DNA from: a virus
Virus record (IMG/VR): IMGVR_UViG_3300002143_000143
Span: 1 to 21,606 of that record
Reading direction: 5' to 3' (one strand)
Length of the DNA stretch: 21,606 bases
Below are positions 3,151 to 21,200 of this stretch, piece after piece; the first letter of the stretch is position 1; the number at the start of each line of letters is the position of its first letter. Position numbers and translations under genes: made by a program. The notes below the pieces were generated by a model. The model did no database searches and had not been told where the DNA came from. It was given only the letters and a program-made list of their open reading frames with translations.

Positions 3151-3158
3151 GATAAATA
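3151..3158 (+). promoter_or_regulatory. Late-promoter-like box GATAAATA for the rightward operon
   Basis: This differs from TATAAATA only at the first base and lies 35 bases before the gp48 ATG. Expected start is near 3164, leaving a leader that holds AGGA at 3185-3188. The same GATAAATA form recurs before the gene at 18216. It faces the leftward promoter at 3178-3185, forming a 7-bp inverted repeat with it. Confidence 0.5.
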
Positions 3159-12066: not shown

Positions 12067-14697
12067 ATGAGCAATAAAACGCCGATTGCAGTTGCATTAG
12101 AAAGACAAATCCCCGAATATATTCGAGGAGAGTATGAGCTATTTGTTAATTTCATAAAAGCATATTACGAGTTTTTAGACCAAAGCCAACAGCGTAATTT
12201 AGAAGATATTCGTTCTATCGATAATACTTTAGAAGAATTCGTACTTCGATTTAAGAAAGAATTATCGGTATTATTTCCTACTAATACGTTAGCAAATGAG
12301 CGTTTTATTCTACAAAGAATTCGCGAATTTTATCAATCACGTGGATCTAAAGAATCATACCAATTTTTATTTAGAATTCTTTTTAACAAAGATTCTGATA
12401 TTTTTTATCCATCTACGCAAATTTTAAAAGCTTCTGATGGAAAGTGGGTTCAGGAAAAATCAGTATTCGTGCAAAGTGTTTCAGGTAATCTTTTTAATCT
12501 TACCGGTAAGATTATTGACATATCTACTACAAATAAACAAATACATGTGTTTTCTCCACGTGTAGTTCTTTATCGTCCTGGAGTATATGAAGTCTTTATC
12601 GATAGATCATACACTGCGGATATATCTATTGGCGATACTGTAGAGTCTCAAGATGGCAAAGACACCGGTATAATACTTCCATGTCCTAACAAATATACTA
12701 TTACTACTGCTGGCGCTGGATTTGAAGTTGGCGCTTTATATTATCTTAAAACAGAAAGCGGCGATGGTTCTTTAATTAAGGTTACTAAGATAGGCAATAG
12801 TATTGAAGGAAGTACAATAACAAATGGACTTATTAAAAAGATTCAAGTTATTAATTTTGGTTTAGATTATACATCTACGTTCTACGCACAACTTAGTAAT
12901 AAACAAGCTACAGCATTAGCATATCGTCATCCAGTTCCAGGACCATTCCTAGATCAAACAACTGGATTCGTTGATTTGGGTTATATCAATAAACAAGATT
13001 ATTTCTACTATGATAGGTTTTACACTCCGGCTGGAAACAATAACGAAAAAGTATTTTACGCTGATGGTACATATGTTGGTGAAATAATTGGGTCGTTCTA
13101 TACCAATGCTAGCACCATGAACGTTATTGATACAAGTACTGCAGAAATAAAAATAGAACTTGGCGCTGTTGCAGTATATCCGGGGTATTATTCTGCATCA
13201 GATGGATTCATTTCAGATGAGTCCTTTATTCAAGACGGAAAATATTATCAATTATTTTCATATGTTATTCGTGTAGAACAACAAATAGAATCCTATTATG
13301 ATATCGTTAAGCAGTTGATGCATCCTGCTGGAACAGAATTGTTTGCTGAATATACAATTAAGAATTCTTACTTAGTTTCTGCATCACCATTACTTGCGTT
13401 TATTCGCCGTCAATTCTTAGAAGCTATTTTCGTGACTGATGACGAATCTGCGAATACTATTGAAATGCCTAAAGCGGATGCGTTACCAGCTATTCATTCG
13501 TTTCTTCAAGACATTAAAGATAAACAAATTTCTATTAGGAAATATGATTCTAGCGGAAGCTTAATCGGTATTCAATTAAACAGTGTTTTAGTGAGTGGTA
13601 CCGCTGGACAATTTACTACTACATCAGTATTAACGCCTTCAGGATTCCCAATTGCTACTCCACTAGTTGTTGGTCAATTAATGCGAGTAATTGGAACTTT
13701 AAGTGGAAGTGGAACCATATCACAATATGAAACTAAAAATGCTGGATCGTTTGTAATTGGAAGAAGCTATAAAATAGTTAGCGTTGGCACAACTGATTTC
13801 ATTTCAATTGGAGCTACTTCAAATGCAATAGACCAGGTGTTCACTGCTATAGGTGTTGGTTCTGGCACAGGTACTGCAAAACATCAAGAACCAACGGCAG
13901 CTAATTCAACTATTTACAGAGTAAGTTCTGTTAGTTTTTCTGGTGTTACACCTTATCAATTTGTATTAACTAATATCGATGGAACTGCTTTAACTACTAC
14001 AGCAGGTTCAACTACAGGCTTAACGTTTTCAACAATGGAAACTAACGCCAGATGGTCTACTGTTGATCCTTATACATTACAACAGTATGATATGGTTAAA
14101 GGATCAGCAAATGATCCAATTGAAAATTCTCTTGTAAGCACAGCATTTACACGAATAAATGATATTGCAAAACCAAGAGAAGAAAATGTTCCTCAATTAG
14201 ACCAAAACGTAGAAGATTTTGCTCGTGGTACTACACAAGATTCTATTACATCTGTACAAAGCGCCCTCATATGGGAATTGAGTGGCGGTTCTTGGAATAA
14301 GAGTGTAACTGCAGTTGATGAAGTTGCACCTGTAAGATTTCCTAAATATGTAGACGTAATCTATTTAGATGGATATTTTTCTGGAGGTATACAATATCCA
14401 GATGCAGATTTCTTTACATCTGCAGTAACATATGCAAGATCAAATGCTGATGGAACTACTCCTGTAGAATCAGGAAGAGATTGGGTTTGGAGTGGAGAAA
14501 CGTTCAACCAAAGTACTAGTAGCGTAGATAGCACTCCATTTTTTAATAGTAATAGACTATACACAGACGCAATAAATAATACAAACACTGGAATTTTGTA
14601 CTATAATATGTACAATCAAGACACTTCGGATCCATCTACTTCGTTTTCTTATGAAGCAGAAACGTATTCGGAGCATACAACAAAATCACTTTCATAA
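12067..14697 (+). CDS. gp7: Baseplate wedge protein, probable gp7
   Basis: The protein has 876 aa (T4 gp7 has 1032). It starts with the helical wedge segment YIRGEYELFVNFIKAYYEFL (residues 18-37) and RFILQRIREFYQSRGSKESY, which I associate with the protein that follows gp6 in marine T4-like phages and is usually named gp7. The middle is beta-rich, with Gly-rich turn motifs. Residues 559-604 are a module (AGSFVIGRSYKIVSVGTTDF... GVGSGTGTA) that recurs in unrelated marine phage virion proteins. The last 200 residues are Asn/Ser/Thr-rich and look like a surface or fibre-attachment part. In T4, gp7 is the long arm of the wedge that contacts gp8 and gp10. gp7 sequences diverge strongly, so the number is a family-and-position call. 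Confidence 0.65.
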   Translation: MSNKTPIAVALERQIPEYIRGEYELFVNFIKAYYEFLDQSQQRNLEDIRSIDNTLEEFVLRFKKELSVLFPTNTLANERFILQRIREFYQSRGSKESYQFLFRILFNKDSDIFYPSTQILKASDGKWVQEKSVFVQSVSGNLFNLTGKIIDISTTNKQIHVFSPRVVLYRPGVYEVFIDRSYTADISIGDTVESQDGKDTGIILPCPNKYTITTAGAGFEVGALYYLKTESGDGSLIKVTKIGNSIEGSTITNGLIKKIQVINFGLDYTSTFYAQLSNKQATALAYRHPVPGPFLDQTTGFVDLGYINKQDYFYYDRFYTPAGNNNEKVFYADGTYVGEIIGSFYTNASTMNVIDTSTAEIKIELGAVAVYPGYYSASDGFISDESFIQDGKYYQLFSYVIRVEQQIESYYDIVKQLMHPAGTELFAEYTIKNSYLVSASPLLAFIRRQFLEAIFVTDDESANTIEMPKADALPAIHSFLQDIKDKQISIRKYDSSGSLIGIQLNSVLVSGTAGQFTTTSVLTPSGFPIATPLVVGQLMRVIGTLSGSGTISQYETKNAGSFVIGRSYKIVSVGTTDFISIGATSNAIDQVFTAIGVGSGTGTAKHQEPTAANSTIYRVSSVSFSGVTPYQFVLTNIDGTALTTTAGSTTGLTFSTMETNARWSTVDPYTLQQYDMVKGSANDPIENSLVSTAFTRINDIAKPREENVPQLDQNVEDFARGTTQDSITSVQSALIWELSGGSWNKSVTAVDEVAPVRFPKYVDVIYLDGYFSGGIQYPDADFFTSAVTYARSNADGTTPVESGRDWVWSGETFNQSTSSVDSTPFFNSNRLYTDAINNTNTGILYYNMYNQDTSDPSTSFSYEAETYSEHTTKSLS
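13741..13878 (+). other. Mobile-looking protein module inside gp7
   Basis: This stretch encodes 46 residues (559-604 of gp7) with the pattern SFVIGRSYKIVSVGTTDF and a Gly/Thr end VGSGTGTA. As I recall the family, near-identical segments appear, alone or in tandem, in many marine phage tail and capsid-associated proteins. Only one copy is seen here. It is bounded by flexible Gly/Ser/Asn-rich sequence, as expected of an exchangeable surface module. Confidence 0.45.
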
Positions 14698-14701
14698 AAG
14701 G

Positions 14702-14709
14702 TATAAACA
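14702..14709 (+). promoter_or_regulatory. Weak late-promoter-like box before the 178-aa structural gene
   Basis: TATAAACA differs from TATAAATA at one position and lies 1 base before the ATG at 14711. A start site 6 bases downstream would fall inside the gene, so this is probably not functional for that ORF. AAAAGG at 14696-14701 is the likely ribosome site. Confidence 0.15.
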
Positions 14710-14710
14710 T

Positions 14711-15247
14711 ATGATTTCTCCAATTTTCAAATTCACTAACTTAGTTGAAATGGGCGGTACACTTGCTATTGCTCACTTCGGCCCTAACGGCGAATTGATC
14801 GAAGATCGATTCTATTCTAACATCGTTGTAACAGTAGGTAAGCAATGGATTGCTCAGCGTATGAAAGATACTGCTGGTTCTCCATCACATACGATTCCAC
14901 TTCAAATGTCACATATGGCTGTTGGCGGTAATGCAACGGTTGGTTCTAACCCAGCTAAAACAACTCCAGTTGTAGGTGATACACAATTATCTACTGGCGG
15001 TTCTCCTGCACTTTCTGAATTAGCTCGTGTTGGTTTAACGACTGCAGGTGGTGTAGTATCAGGTGCGGTTGTTACATATGCAACAACTTTTGCAGCTGGT
15101 ACAGGAACTGGTTCGTTAGTTGAAGCTGGTATTTTTAACAGTGCTACTGGCGCAGCAGGTACAATGCTTTGTAAGACTTCTTTTGATGTTGTTAACAAAG
15201 CCGCTAACGATTCTATCGCAATCACTTGGACTGTAACTATACAATGA
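14711..15247 (+). CDS. Virion structural protein with codon use of a highly expressed gene
   Basis: The protein has 178 aa. The start at 14711 is chosen because AAAAGG lies 9 bases before it and an upstream in-frame ATG at 14651 would overlap gp7 by 47 bases and add a basic, unconserved stretch. The protein opens with ISPIFKFTNLVEMGG, has a central Gly/Thr/Ala-rich region and ends in SFDVVNKAANDSIAITWTVT. I recall that last type of ending (GIFN..GTML..T.F..VNK...D...ITW) from fibre- or decoration-like phage structural proteins. No catalytic motif is seen. Codon use differs from neighbours: Asn is AAC in 7 of 8 cases, all three Arg codons are CGN, and TTC is common, suggesting an abundant protein. 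The exact role is unknown. Confidence 0.7.
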   Translation: MISPIFKFTNLVEMGGTLAIAHFGPNGELIEDRFYSNIVVTVGKQWIAQRMKDTAGSPSHTIPLQMSHMAVGGNATVGSNPAKTTPVVGDTQLSTGGSPALSELARVGLTTAGGVVSGAVVTYATTFAAGTGTGSLVEAGIFNSATGAAGTMLCKTSFDVVNKAANDSIAITWTVTIQ

Positions 15248-15258
15248 CGGCCTAATGC

Positions 15259-15295
15259 GTATAAATACTTCTATAAAATTAGGAGTATTTTATGC
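15259..15295 (+). promoter_or_regulatory. Translational hairpin hiding the endonuclease ribosome site and start codon
   Basis: AAATACTTCTA (15263-15273) pairs with TAGGAGTATTT (15280-15290) over 11 positions with one T-G wobble and a 6-base loop (TAAAAT). Past a one-base bulge at 15291, GTAT (15259-15262) can pair with ATGC (15292-15295), closing over the start codon. The Shine-Dalgarno AGGAG (15281-15285) is fully inside the 3' arm. Read-through transcripts would fold this way; transcripts from the late promoter would not. Confidence 0.7.
15260..15267 (+). promoter_or_regulatory. Late promoter TATAAATA for the homing endonuclease
   Basis: An exact late promoter box lies in the 44-base gap upstream of the endonuclease ATG. 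Start of transcription is expected around 15273. The box overlaps the 5' arm of the hairpin at 15259-15295, so the local transcript would lack that arm. Confidence 0.7.
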
Positions 15296-15945
15296 AAAGC
15301 TTTCCACCAACTTACCTGTATATAAAGCAACACTCTATTACGGGTAAGTTATATTTTGGTAAAACCACTAAAAATCCTGAAACATATAATGGGTCTGGAA
15401 TTAGATGGACAAAGCATTTCTCTTATCATGGTAAAGAATACATAGAAAATGTATGGTATTGTTTATTTTTAGACGAGCAAAGTATAAATGAATTTGCTGT
15501 AAATTTTTCTAAAGAAAATGATATAGTTAAATCTGATAATTGGTTAAATTTAATTGAAGAAACTGGTTTAAGCGATCCTATTCGAACTTTAAGTAGTCGT
15601 CAAAAAATGAGTGAAGCTCAGCGTGGCAACACTAAACGACGTGGTAAGACTCATACAGATGCTGCAAAGGAAAAAAATAGAATAGCACATCTTGGCAAAA
15701 AAGCTAGTGAAGAAACTTTAGAAAAAATGCGTAAGTATAGTCACTCACAACCAGATGAAGTGCGCCAAAGAATAAAAAATACGCTTACCGGCACAAAACA
15801 CACTGATGAGCGTATAATAAATATGAAAACTGCTAAACTAAATAAGAAAATGAAATGGTATAGCAATGGTGAATTCACAAAACTGTTTACTCCAGGAACA
15901 GAGCCAAGTGGATGGACCCTTGGAAGAAAATTAACAGGACTATAA
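15292..15945 (+). CDS. GIY-YIG homing endonuclease, free-standing (Seg-like)
   Basis: The protein has 217 aa. The N-terminal GIY-YIG nuclease is seen in YLYIKQHSITGKLYFGKTTK (residues 8-27), then YNGSGIRWTKHFSYHG (32-47), ENDIVKSDNWLNLIEETG (75-92) with a likely catalytic Glu. The middle carries two or three NUMOD3-like DNA-binding repeats (SSRQKMSEAQRG, EETLEKMRKYS, RQRIKNTLTGTKHTDE). The end KWYSNGEFTKLFTPGTEPSG is a tail common to phage-encoded nucleases. Such enzymes cut a related phage's DNA near their own insertion site and are copied in by repair. It lies between two structural genes, has its own late promoter, and its translation start is buried in a hairpin. Its last codons carry the ribosome site of gp8. 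Confidence 0.9.
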   Translation: MQSFPPTYLYIKQHSITGKLYFGKTTKNPETYNGSGIRWTKHFSYHGKEYIENVWYCLFLDEQSINEFAVNFSKENDIVKSDNWLNLIEETGLSDPIRTLSSRQKMSEAQRGNTKRRGKTHTDAAKEKNRIAHLGKKASEETLEKMRKYSHSQPDEVRQRIKNTLTGTKHTDERIINMKTAKLNKKMKWYSNGEFTKLFTPGTEPSGWTLGRKLTGL

Positions 15946-18162
15946 ATGGCAACCTCGCTACTAAAATTCTCTCTGAAGACCAACTTAGTTAAGTCGGTCA
16001 TTTCAGAGATTGTATCAAATATAAGCAGATACTATTACGTCTATTGCCATCCTGGCGTATGGACTAACGAATCTGTCCCCGAACCAGTATCAGATTCGTT
16101 TGCATATGAAAATGCTACACGAAATGAAGCAATCTTATATAAGCAGATTGACGCTAATGATATTTGCGCAGTTATTCCAAGAATTAATTGGGCAGCTGGG
16201 TATACGTTTGATATGTATGGAGAATATAGTAGCGACAAGCCCGCGTATTCTGGCGCTACAGCATTAGAAAATGCAGAGTTTTATTGTTTAACTGATGACT
16301 TTAACGTTTATAAATGTCTTTTTAATAATAACGCTAAGCCTTCTTCTGTACGTCCAACTGGAACTTCCGTTGTAGCCATTACTCTCGATGATGGTTACAT
16401 GTGGAAATATATGTATACCGTTCCGTTATCAGTTCGCAATAAATTTTTAACAGCTACGAGTATGCCAGTCGTTACTGCGCTTTCAAACCAATTTTATTCA
16501 AAAGGATCTATTGTTTCATTTACAATTGAAAATCCTGGAAAAAAATATCCAATCACGTCATATAAAGTAACGGGATTTAGAATTATAGAGGGTGGTTCAG
16601 GTTATTCGTCTAGTCCTACTGTAACTCTTTCAAATCCAGATCAGGTTGGAGGAGTTCCAGCAACTGTGACTTCAGTAACACTCTCTGGAGGTCAAATAAG
16701 TTCTTTAGTAATTAGTAATCAAGGTTCTGGTTATTCATATCCACCAGTTGTTACTATTACAGGTGGCGGTGCATCCCGGCACGCATCGTTAGAACCAATT
16801 GTAGAACGCTTAGGTTCTGTATTTACAACTCTCACAGTAACGGGAGACGGTCGACTTGAAGAAAATCCTTATCAGGTGCAATCCATATCGGTTGTAACTG
16901 GAGGAACTGGTTATGCGACAGCTACATTATTATTCCAAGATCCTGATCTTCCTAATGGCGTTAAAGCTGTTGCAACTGCTACAATTTCTGCTGGAGTTAT
17001 AACTGGTTTCACTGTAACTAATTCTGGTTATGGATATTCAAAACCCTTTAACTCTATTTTACAAGATCCAAATAATAATGTTGGCAATATTGTTTTAGTA
17101 AATGCAACTTCACTTTCTGGCCAAACGGCAACTGGTTTATCTTTTCGTGTTAACACTTTAAAAAATGAAGCAGAGCTAATTCCTCTCATCAATTCAAATG
17201 GTGAAATAGAATCTATTAGAATTACAAAGCCTGGAATTGGTTATACGTATGCGATAGTGACAGTAAACACATCTTTAGATCGCAGTCCTTTAGTTAATCC
17301 AGATTTCGTAGAAGCTTCTATTCTTTTAAACTTCGGCATTGGCGATATAGAATCTAGACAATCGACAGTTGAATTAACTGCTGTTGATGGAGCAATCCAT
17401 GTTGTAAATGTAATTAATCCTGGCTTTGGATATACATCTCCTCCAATAGTTACTATAGTTGGTGATGGCAACGGCGCAACAGCTACCGCTGTTCTTACTG
17501 CGACAGGCAGTGTCGATAAGATCTCTATAAATACTATTGGACGGGATTATACTTATGCTAATGTAATTATAACTGGTCCAGCAGCTTCTCCTGCAACTGC
17601 TGAAGAAATTATTTCTCCCAAAGGTGGACACGGAAGAGATGCTATTAGTGAATTATATGCTAAGACTATCGTATTCTTTGGAAATCTTTCTAAAGAAAAA
17701 AATAAAGGATTTACTGCAACGAATGATTATCGTCAAGTGTGTATAGTTAAAAATCCAAAAATTTACGGAAAAGACATTAACATACGTTCTGCTTTAGCAT
17801 CTACTTGCCTTATCGCTATTGGTACAAAAGGACAAATCGGATTTAGTTTACTTAATTTAGATGATGTTCTTAATTGGATAGATACTAGTGTAACGCCAAA
17901 TAGATCTTATGCATTTAAAGTTATTGAAAAAAATAGCAATTATTCTACTACAGAAGCAGCTGTGTTATTATCATACCTAGACAATAAAATTCCAAGTTCA
18001 GGTTCTACTTTTAGTAAAGTTGGAGCAGTATTTAATACTACAAATATCATTACTCCAGATGTTAATAAGTTTTCGGGAGATCAGTTATTGATTGATAATA
18101 GAATAAGATTCTCTCCGTCTGAGCAACAGATTGTTGTAGTAACTAATTCCATTATTTTCTAA
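15946..18162 (+). CDS. gp8: Baseplate wedge subunit gp8 with long repeat insertion
   Basis: The protein has 738 aa against 334 in T4. T4 gp8 features are seen at the N-terminus (SRYYYVYCHPGVW; AVIPRINW at 75-82; DDGYMWKYMYTVP at 148-160) and again near 591-610 (ATNDYRQVCIVKNPKIYG). Between them, about residues 185-550 hold at least seven copies of a beta repeat centred on G-x-GY (near 219, 261, 321, 362, 431, 495 and, weaker, 534), for example GGSGYSSSPTVTLS and PGFGYTSPPIVTI. The order gp6-gp7-gp8 agrees. In T4, gp8 dimers bridge gp7, gp10 and the wedge core. The ATG abuts the endonuclease stop (TAA-ATG); AGGA at 15936-15939 lies within the endonuclease gene. Confidence 0.85.
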   Translation: MATSLLKFSLKTNLVKSVISEIVSNISRYYYVYCHPGVWTNESVPEPVSDSFAYENATRNEAILYKQIDANDICAVIPRINWAAGYTFDMYGEYSSDKPAYSGATALENAEFYCLTDDFNVYKCLFNNNAKPSSVRPTGTSVVAITLDDGYMWKYMYTVPLSVRNKFLTATSMPVVTALSNQFYSKGSIVSFTIENPGKKYPITSYKVTGFRIIEGGSGYSSSPTVTLSNPDQVGGVPATVTSVTLSGGQISSLVISNQGSGYSYPPVVTITGGGASRHASLEPIVERLGSVFTTLTVTGDGRLEENPYQVQSISVVTGGTGYATATLLFQDPDLPNGVKAVATATISAGVITGFTVTNSGYGYSKPFNSILQDPNNNVGNIVLVNATSLSGQTATGLSFRVNTLKNEAELIPLINSNGEIESIRITKPGIGYTYAIVTVNTSLDRSPLVNPDFVEASILLNFGIGDIESRQSTVELTAVDGAIHVVNVINPGFGYTSPPIVTIVGDGNGATATAVLTATGSVDKISINTIGRDYTYANVIITGPAASPATAEEIISPKGGHGRDAISELYAKTIVFFGNLSKEKNKGFTATNDYRQVCIVKNPKIYGKDINIRSALASTCLIAIGTKGQIGFSLLNLDDVLNWIDTSVTPNRSYAFKVIEKNSNYSTTEAAVLLSYLDNKIPSSGSTFSKVGAVFNTTNIITPDVNKFSGDQLLIDNRIRFSPSEQQIVVVTNSIIF

Positions 18163-18169
18163 TAAGCAA

Positions 18170-18177
18170 GATAAATA
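18170..18177 (+). promoter_or_regulatory. Late-promoter-like box before the DUF4815 gene
   Basis: GATAAATA, one base from TATAAATA, lies in the 53-base gap between gp8 and the next gene, 38 bases before its ATG. It has the same form as the box before gp48. Expected start is near 18183, giving a leader of about 33 bases with a purine-rich AGAAGAGAAAAAG ribosome region. Confidence 0.5.
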
Positions 18178-18215
18178 TAACAGATCTTATTAATTAATTC
18201 CAGAAGAGAAAAAGT

Positions 18216-21200
18216 ATGTCACTCAACTTTAATATTGAACCATTTTATGATGATTATTCCGAAGGAAAGAAATTCTATAGAATTTTATTTCGGCCGGGAT
18301 ATGCTATTCAAGCTCGGGAATTAACGCAACTTCAAACAATTCTCCAGCAACAAATAAAGCGTCATGGCGACCATATGTTTAAGAATGGTGCTATGATCAT
18401 TCCTGGGCAAGTTTCTTATGATTCTAAAACTGCATATGCTAAATTAAAAGCAACTAGTGCATCTAGTGCGGCCGTTAAAACATTCGCAATCTTATCTTCA
18501 GTTATTGGAAAAACGTACGTAGGAAGAACATCTGGTGTTCAAGCTATTGTTCTTACAGCAACTCCTTTAGAAGTTGTTAATAATGTAAGCGAAGCAGATA
18601 CTATATTCGTAAAATACACACGTGGTTCTGGCACTTTTACTTCAGGAGAAATAATTGCGCCAGTTGATGGATCTTCAGGTTTAGATCTTCAAATTGAAGA
18701 AACTTCAATTGATGCGCTAGCGCAAGGTCATGGAACTACAGCGTCGATTCAAGAAGGCGTGTATTATGTTAAGAATCATTTCGTATATGTAGAAGCGCAA
18801 ACAACAGTATTAGCAAAATATAGTGATCAAGCTAGCGCAAAATGCGGCCTTCAAGTAAATGAAAGTGTTATCTATCCTGAAGAAGATGATAGTCTTCTTG
18901 ATAATGCATTAGGTTCTCCAAATTATGCAGCACCTGGCTCCGCTCGATATTCTATTGAACTTACATTGACTAGTAAATCATACGACAGCACCACTGATGA
19001 CGATGAGTTTATTACTTTATTGACTATTAAAGTTGGCGTTGTTCAATTCTTAGTTAACAAAACTGCATATGCTCAAATAGAAAAAACTTTTGCTAGACGC
19101 ACATATGATGAGTCTGGTGATTACACTGTGCGAGATTTTCCTATACAAGTTAGAGAATATCGCAATAATGATCGCGGATCATGGGATAATAATAAGACAT
19201 TTATTAAAGGTGATATCGTTGTATCTGGCGGCATCAAATATAAGTGTATAACACAACATACTTCTTCCGTATCTGGAAGTTTTGCTGTAGGATCCAATTG
19301 GTTAGCAGATACTACTCCTCCATTTAATTATGGTTTATACCAAGGACCAACATATTCTTTAAGTCCTTCAACAGACGTTGTTCCATTAACTCGAAAAATT
19401 TCTTTAGCAGTCGAGCCAGGAAAAGCATATGTTCGTGGTTATGAAGTTGAGAAGATTGTCACTCAATATTTAACGCTAGATAAAGCTCGTGATTTATCAA
19501 ATTATGAAGCAAAGTCAATTGACACTAGTCCTGGTAATTATGTTATCGTAGGTTCTACAAACTTTCTACCAGACATCAATACAGACGTAACATTTTACGA
19601 TAAGTACGGCACAGCTGGTGCAACACCTTCTGGCGGTAACGTTGTTGCAACTGCACGCATTAAACAAATTCAACTTCATAGTTTAAGCCCTTTAACTTAT
19701 AAAGTGTTTTTATTTAGATTGTCGATTACTTCTGGAAAAGTATTTTCACGTGATGCAAAGTATCTTTATTCTGATGTCGGTGCTATAGATTTTACTGCAC
19801 GAGTTATTCCAACTTTAACTCAATTGACAGGCACAATTTCTTCAGCTAATAGTACTACACTATCTGGTATCAATACTACGTTTATTCAAGATTTAAAAAT
19901 TGGTGATTATGTTTATTTTAATTCTAATCCATACCGTGTTGAAAGTATCGCAACTAATAATAGCATTGTCGTAAGTTTAATTGATAGCGTAGCAGTTGGG
20001 ACGGTTTCTGCTGGAACAAACATTTATCGAGTTGAAGCTACAATAGAAAGTCCAAGATCAGAAATATCTTATTATAGACTTCCAGTATATGCAGTAAATA
20101 ACACGAAAGATTTAAACTATAGTTTTTATAAGAAATATACTACAAGCAGTGGAGTAACTACTGCTACATTTTCAGAATCTGGCTATGTATTTGGTGTTAG
20201 CACAGATCCTACAAATTATATAGTAGTCAATGCATCTACAGGTGCCCATTTAACGCAAGTAACAAGCGGTGCAACTGGTGCACAATTCAGCGTCAGTGGA
20301 GGCGGCAGCGCTTCTGTTACGCTTACATTTGGTTCTTCTGGCGCGTATGTAGTTATATGCAATGTGCGTAAAGCAGTCAATGGATCTACACCACGCCTTA
20401 AGACTTTAACTAATATTACCGAGACAGTAACTCTCAGTGGCAGCCCATCAACTGCTATACTTTCAAAGGGTGACGGGTTTGAATTGATAAGCGTTACGCA
20501 AAGCGGTAGCGATATTACTTCTAGATTTAAATTCGATGATGGCGCAAAAGCTGCGTATTATGATCTATCATCTATTACAGTTAAACCAGGATTTACTGCT
20601 ACTGGAAGCGTAGTAGTTACTTATAGTTATTTTAATCATGCTGGATCTAGTGATTACTTCACAATTGACTCATATACGCATGGTAGCTCTAATATTTTGT
20701 ATGAAGAAATCCCATCAGATAGAATAAGCATTTTAGACTTTAGGCCTCTACGTAATTCAGATGGCACGTTTTCTAATGTAGTTATTCCTAAGTATGCTGA
20801 AGAAACAGATATCTATTTCAATTATTACTTAGGTCGTATCGACAAACTATCGTTAACAACAACGGGTGAATTTATAATTACTCGTGGTATACCAGATCTA
20901 TATCCAAGTGTTCCGCCAAGTCCTAAAGATTCTATGGATTTGTACACGTTTAACGTTGAGCCATATACATTTACTGGTTCTACTGCAAGCGTTGTTCCAA
21001 ATAAAATAGAAAATAAACGCTATACAATGCGCGATATTGGTAAACTAGAAAGTCGAATTAATAACTTAGAATATTACACTACTTTATCATTGTTAGAGCA
21101 GAATACAGTTAACAATAAAGCATATGATAATTATGGTTTAGAGCGTCCACAAAATGGATTTATAGTTGATGATTTTACTGGTCAAGGAGTTGGATCAGCT

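Follow-up and report, generated by a model that had tools for sequence, protein, structure and literature searches.

The window, meaning the whole analysed stretch of 21,606 nucleotides, is a 21.6-kb IMG/VR record from an uncultivated T4-like phage and holds the locus of a homing endonuclease. The nearest relatives of its gp6-like protein are found in phages of Pelagibacter and Methylophilales (∼38%), and megablast of the 12.6-kb right part of the contig against GenBank phages returned no match. The endonuclease gene is flanked upstream by a phrog_5417 gene and downstream by a baseplate wedge subunit gene (Table 1), in an operon that is virion structural and has late-promoter-like starts. These starts are assigned by applying the T4 consensus to an uncultivated phage, on a contig from which a sigma factor gene is absent. 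A preliminary description of this DNA had placed the gene inside a late operon, a view that the baseplate genes and the promoter-like sequences bear out and that extends to further late insertion sites in other stretches. The baseplate wedge gene begins directly after the endonuclease stop codon, and its probable Shine–Dalgarno sequence, AGGA at 15936–15939, falls within the endonuclease ORF. This downstream gene is essential, and its translation could be affected where read-through RNA leaves the endonuclease unexpressed (15936–15948).

The ORF matches Pfam NUMOD3 and the homing endonuclease family phrog_314 (E 1e-9), and hhalign aligns it with T4 SegB (E 5e-5), the nuclease domains being homologous. 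In the AF2 model the N-terminal core has a pLDDT above 90, and VIA-align superposes the predicted N-terminal domain on the catalytic domain of I-TevI with a Z of 8.4 over 86 residues and an rmsd of 2.8 Å, well above unrelated rows. At the level of the whole protein hhalign gave no significant match to I-TevI, the two proteins being only distantly alike, and the family profile matched no solved structure in a sequence search. A likeness to Slx1, which appeared only as weak matches in plain Foldseek, was resolved by VIA-align in favour of the I-TevI domain. Pfam, PHROG, hhalign and structure comparison thus agree with the homing endonuclease identity proposed at the outset: the gene product is classed as a Seg-like GIY-YIG enzyme on its sequence and modelled structure, with DNA cleavage and homing as predicted activities.

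Table 1. Features of the endonuclease locus in the window and of related loci (positions refer to the window unless a locus label is given)
Feature	Position or locus	Strand	Basis or remark
GATAAATA, late-promoter-like	3151..3158	+	precedes first gene (3194) of plus-strand baseplate operon
phrog_5417 gene, upstream neighbour, baseplate neighbourhood	14651..15247	+	PHROG match
Mobile unit, leader and gene	15244..15945	+	comparison with L081; takes the place of 13 nt in the empty site
Outer clamp, 5′ side, pairing with 15291–15296	15256..15261	+	fold; re-pairs in shifted register in L005
T4-type late promoter octamer TATAAATA, on 5′ arm of hairpin	15260..15267	+	exact match
Core stem, 5′ arm	15263..15273	+	folds; retained in L005
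Predicted local late transcript start	15273	+	inferred from T4 late-promoter geometry
Hairpin loop UAAAAU, 6 nt	15274..15279	+	folds; UGUGUU in L005
Core stem, 3′ arm, with Shine–Dalgarno AGGAG (15281–15285)	15280..15290	+	sequence, fold
Outer clamp, 3′ side, over ATG (15292–15294)	15291..15296	+	fold
Predicted free-standing Seg-like GIY-YIG homing endonuclease, 217 aa, NUMOD3 motif	15292..15945	+	Pfam, PHROG, AF2, structure alignment, hhalign
Baseplate wedge subunit gene, downstream neighbour	15946..18162	+	phrog_438, E 3e-85
GATAAATA, late-promoter-like	18170..18177	+	precedes gene at 18216
GIY-YIG led genes	L070, L034, L054, L041 and others
HNH led genes	L076, L075, L059
PD-(D/E)XK-like led genes	L049, L028, L038
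Led nuclease site	L070		gp25-like/gp6-like
Led nuclease sites	L054, L023, L041		after major head protein
Led nuclease sites	L076 (HNH), L065 (GIY-YIG)		sheath/tube
Led nuclease site	L052		before portal gene
Led PD-(D/E)XK-like endonuclease gene	L049:5215–8618		between two parts of DNA polymerase gene
Led HNH nuclease site	L059		adjoins ligase gene
P1–P2–P3 leader examples	L018:3919–3991, L011:3923–3997, L012:3922–3994		alignment A2, model R1

Across the start of the endonuclease gene the RNA is predicted to fold into a hairpin that extends from 15256 to 15296 and comprises 17 pairs: a core of 11 pairs, one of which is G–U, six outer pairs and one bulged U (U15262). The preliminary description had reported an 11-position stem over AGGAG and ATG with TATAAATA exactly on its 5′ arm, and both points are confirmed, the promoter by direct reading and the stem by reading together with a fold of 15200–15320. 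It had also counted four additional pairs across the start codon; outer pairs do exist there, but they are six in number, and in the fold they pair the whole AUG. The 15200–15320 segment folds at −23.9 kcal/mol versus −16.4 ± 2.9 for shuffles (z −2.6), with two of 200 shuffles equally good. By its length alone the stem is unremarkable for this AT-rich contig, where stems of at least 11 pairs occur in nine of 359 tiles. The unusual feature is the placement of the stem over the start: the opening energy at 15292 amounts to 16.2 kcal/mol, the top value among 13 predicted gene starts (the next being 10.1) and the second among the 430 ATGs of the contig. On read-through RNA both the Shine–Dalgarno sequence and the AUG have a predicted unpaired probability of 0.00. 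When the hairpin was used as a blastn query against GenBank phages, the best matches listed covered only 24 nt at 91.7% identity and are chance-like.

The extent of the mobile unit is given by L081, a near-identical empty site with flanks 93% and 94% identical, which is devoid of the endonuclease, of TATAAATA and of the hairpin. The endonuclease is therefore polymorphic for presence and absence at an otherwise conserved site, and it was inserted into the baseplate operon jointly with its leader. Where the site is empty, the downstream gene begins ∼7–14 nt past the upstream stop codon, with no clear Shine–Dalgarno sequence. A second relative, L005, carries the same insert, and its endonuclease protein is 76% identical. 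There the core stem is retained with a different loop, and GC in the outer arm has become TT, yet pairing of this arm is restored by a shift in register, TTTGTATAAA with TTTATGCAAA. An arm that changes in a relative without compensation had been put forward as an observation that would speak against a functional hairpin; the changed arm of L005 is compensated.

From T4 late-promoter geometry the RNA start for TATAAATA is expected at 15273. In folding, RNA that begins at this predicted position loses the hairpin, and the unpaired probability rises from 0.00 to 0.45 for the Shine–Dalgarno sequence and from 0.00 to 0.26 for the start codon. The release anticipated on removal of the arm is thus seen in silico, but only in part. 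A ribosome terminating at the upstream stop codon (15245–15247) should, given the usual ribosome footprint, reach only ∼15258, so that the core stem would stay closed during upstream translation.

This architecture is already known, since it equals that of T4 I-TevI, segB and gene e; what is new is its context among late virion genes. The mechanism has been described for I-TevI, and similar arrangements occur in I-TevII, I-TevIII, segB and mobE of Aeromonas phage Aeh1 (PMC2988022). The I-TevI leader in the td intron, AATAAATACTTCTATATTTAAAGAGGTATTTATG, also carries the late-promoter core on its 5′ arm, hides the Shine–Dalgarno sequence and start codon and precedes a GIY-YIG nuclease, and a 15-nt 5′ arm, ATAAATACTTCTATA, is identical in I-TevI and the window. 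The I-TevI logic invoked in the preliminary description therefore holds as a comparison, but T4 segB is equally close. I-TevI is intron-encoded in an early/middle gene, whereas the window gene is free-standing in a late structural operon. T4 segB is likewise a free-standing Seg-type GIY-YIG gene, with CATAAATACTCTTAGAAATAGGAGATATTTATG and a homologous nuclease domain, but belongs to the T4 tRNA region and not to virion genes. Aeh1 mobE, compared by its published description, is a free-standing endonuclease gene with a ribosome-binding-site hairpin and a late promoter, but is of HNH type and lies within ribonucleotide reductase genes (PMC2988022). In the leader of T4 gene e (lysozyme), a non-mobile gene, late promoters upstream of the ribosome-binding site eliminate an inhibitory arm, and repression is ∼100-fold (PMC3014915); refolding of this leader gave a layout similar to that of the window. 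What I-TevI, segB, mobE, e and soc, the genes so controlled, have in common is that they are late genes carried on early/middle polycistronic RNA (PMC2988022). This shared context is absent from the present locus and is not part of the mechanism. Three features of the T-even promoter-in-hairpin switch itself are found: the Shine–Dalgarno sequence and AUG are predicted to be sequestered, the promoter is located on the arm, and the stem is under selection, as judged from the leader class and, at this site, from one relative.

Among members of this endonuclease family only the window and L005 have the hairpin, most others having a P1–P2 leader, and covariation was accordingly assessed class-wide, on the inner stem. 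The pattern ATAAATACTYCTN{3,14}AGGAGTATTT (that is, ATAAATACTYCT...AGGAGTATTT) occurs in 58 IMG/VR stretches versus one when the 3′ arm is permuted to AGGAGTTATT, and in 82 stretches when the promoter bases are omitted. In 36 non-redundant copies, a set that like the others includes related genes and whose counts overstate independent events, the free inner positions form 66 further pairs versus 19.5 ± 4.8 with shuffled loops and 36.6 ± 5.1 with swapped halves (0/5000 for each), and GNRA-like loops are present in many copies. In the set obtained without the promoter bases, AT precedes AAATA, yielding ATAAATA, in 34 of 46 non-redundant arms, whereas it does so at 9% of all AAATA sites; six more arms have CT instead, which argues that the promoter is selected beyond its contribution to the stem. 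The excess over the permuted arm, the covariation of the inner stem and the enrichment of the promoter on the arm together place both stem and promoter under selection.

About half of the non-redundant ORFs led by this hairpin encode nucleases, which are of GIY-YIG, HNH and PD-(D/E)XK type (Table 1); the remainder include tail tube proteins and genes of no assigned function. Several of the nucleases, of unrelated types, are located among late virion genes. The tail tube genes of L042, L045 and L078 carry the promoter-in-hairpin leader, so this form of control extends beyond mobile genes: the hairpin is not an endonuclease signature. Further copies of the leader are followed by no ORF or by one of 10–17 codons only (L043, L056, L063, L068 and L080), and may be remnants left behind by endonucleases since lost, or free-standing elements.

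The explanation proposed here is that a GIY-YIG homing endonuclease of the free-standing kind invaded the baseplate operon together with its leader, as a single unit. On read-through RNA the 15256–15296 region would fold, conceal the Shine–Dalgarno sequence and AUG and leave the endonuclease untranslated, whereas RNA begun at ∼15273 from TATAAATA would be devoid of the 5′ arm and translatable. The hairpin would then act as a translational insulator, with output dictated by the promoter that the cassette brings to any insertion site and uncoupled from transcription of the neighbours. The interpretation in the preliminary description agrees with all computable steps and is supported by them; its functional part is what we infer from these steps. 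Insulation from read-through, early or late, is quite probably the purpose, rather than only delay to late times, because a device that simply separated early from late expression would gain nothing at late sites.

Delay alone, with early and middle RNA silenced and late read-through inconsequential, is the role described in T4-like phages for I-TevI, segB, mobE, e and soc (PMC2988022). Considered as a candidate for the main explanation, it was demoted to a rival owing to the late context: the surrounding operon is virion structural and the leader recurs at other late sites, where little early/middle RNA is expected. As the sole purpose of the hairpin, delay is considered unlikely. Transcriptional insulation, in which the hairpin would be an intrinsic terminator that halts upstream RNA, could draw on other carriers, in which a GC-rich stem and GNRA loop are followed by TATTTTTTT. 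However, no terminator-like site was called in 14600–18300 of the window, the U run at this locus is short and itself paired, and termination would also sever the essential downstream baseplate gene; a terminator is very unlikely. It is equally hard to credit, and marginally harder, that late promoter and Shine–Dalgarno sequence are complementary by chance and form a functionless hairpin: an 11-pair stem by itself is no rarity in the contig, but the near absence of the permuted arm, the pairing of inner positions far above two nulls and the re-pairing in L005 disfavour a by-product for the leader class. Most improbable is a palindrome that serves as a DNA operator at which the endonuclease would shut down its late promoter. 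I-TevI has been shown to do this, and its operator overlaps that promoter (PMC2988022), but the present stem also precedes unrelated nucleases and tail genes, and the GNRA-type loops of many copies suggest selection on RNA, although operator and insulator could coexist.

Sister endonucleases are accompanied by a different structured leader, which a covariance model search detected in ∼42 of 67 family loci, the window and L005 excluded. Its elements are arranged in the order late-promoter core, P1, UC/A internal loop, R–Y pair, P2, CUCUAACA, P3 and YCAGC-AUG, and P3 is a small hairpin whose loop contains or adjoins AAGGA. Because P1 can be positioned at the expected start site or downstream of it, the mature leader probably includes P1–P2–P3. 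The 3′-part pattern, which fixed parts of P3 and neither P1 nor P2, is found in at least 120 IMG/VR stretches, where at least 103 distinct leaders for the most part precede GIY-YIG and HNH genes, and six times in 257 Gb of prokaryote genomes; the proteins that follow often start with M-x-I-Y. Covariation of P1/P2 reaches 0.751, where shuffles give 0.207 ± 0.018 and slid partners no more than 0.15, and 94% of the cells are paired; P3 accounts for 182 pairs versus 94 ± 8.5. The leader has no Rfam 15 match at the gathering threshold; for one copy, a permissive Rfam scan yielded no convincing match and blastn against GenBank phages yielded none. In L007 (5862–6318 and 899–6934) a sister endonuclease gene with a P1–P2 leader is located inside a tRNA array, next to a GOLLD RNA.

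A more general proposition is advanced tentatively, with a likelihood somewhat short of even: endonuclease cassettes of T4-like phages may carry standard RNA control parts that are common to nucleases of unrelated folds. These would be either the promoter-in-hairpin insulator, late operons included, or the separate covarying P1–P2–P3 leader, which is not in Rfam and bears the Shine–Dalgarno sequence in a small hairpin loop. In the T4 reading the hairpin is a timer that silences late genes on early messages. Its repeated occurrence between virion genes points to a broader role, whereby a mobile gene could enter a highly transcribed operon without over-expression, its output remaining under its own promoter. 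The presence of two leader types in one endonuclease family shows that related mobile genes can differ in the RNA control parts that they bear.
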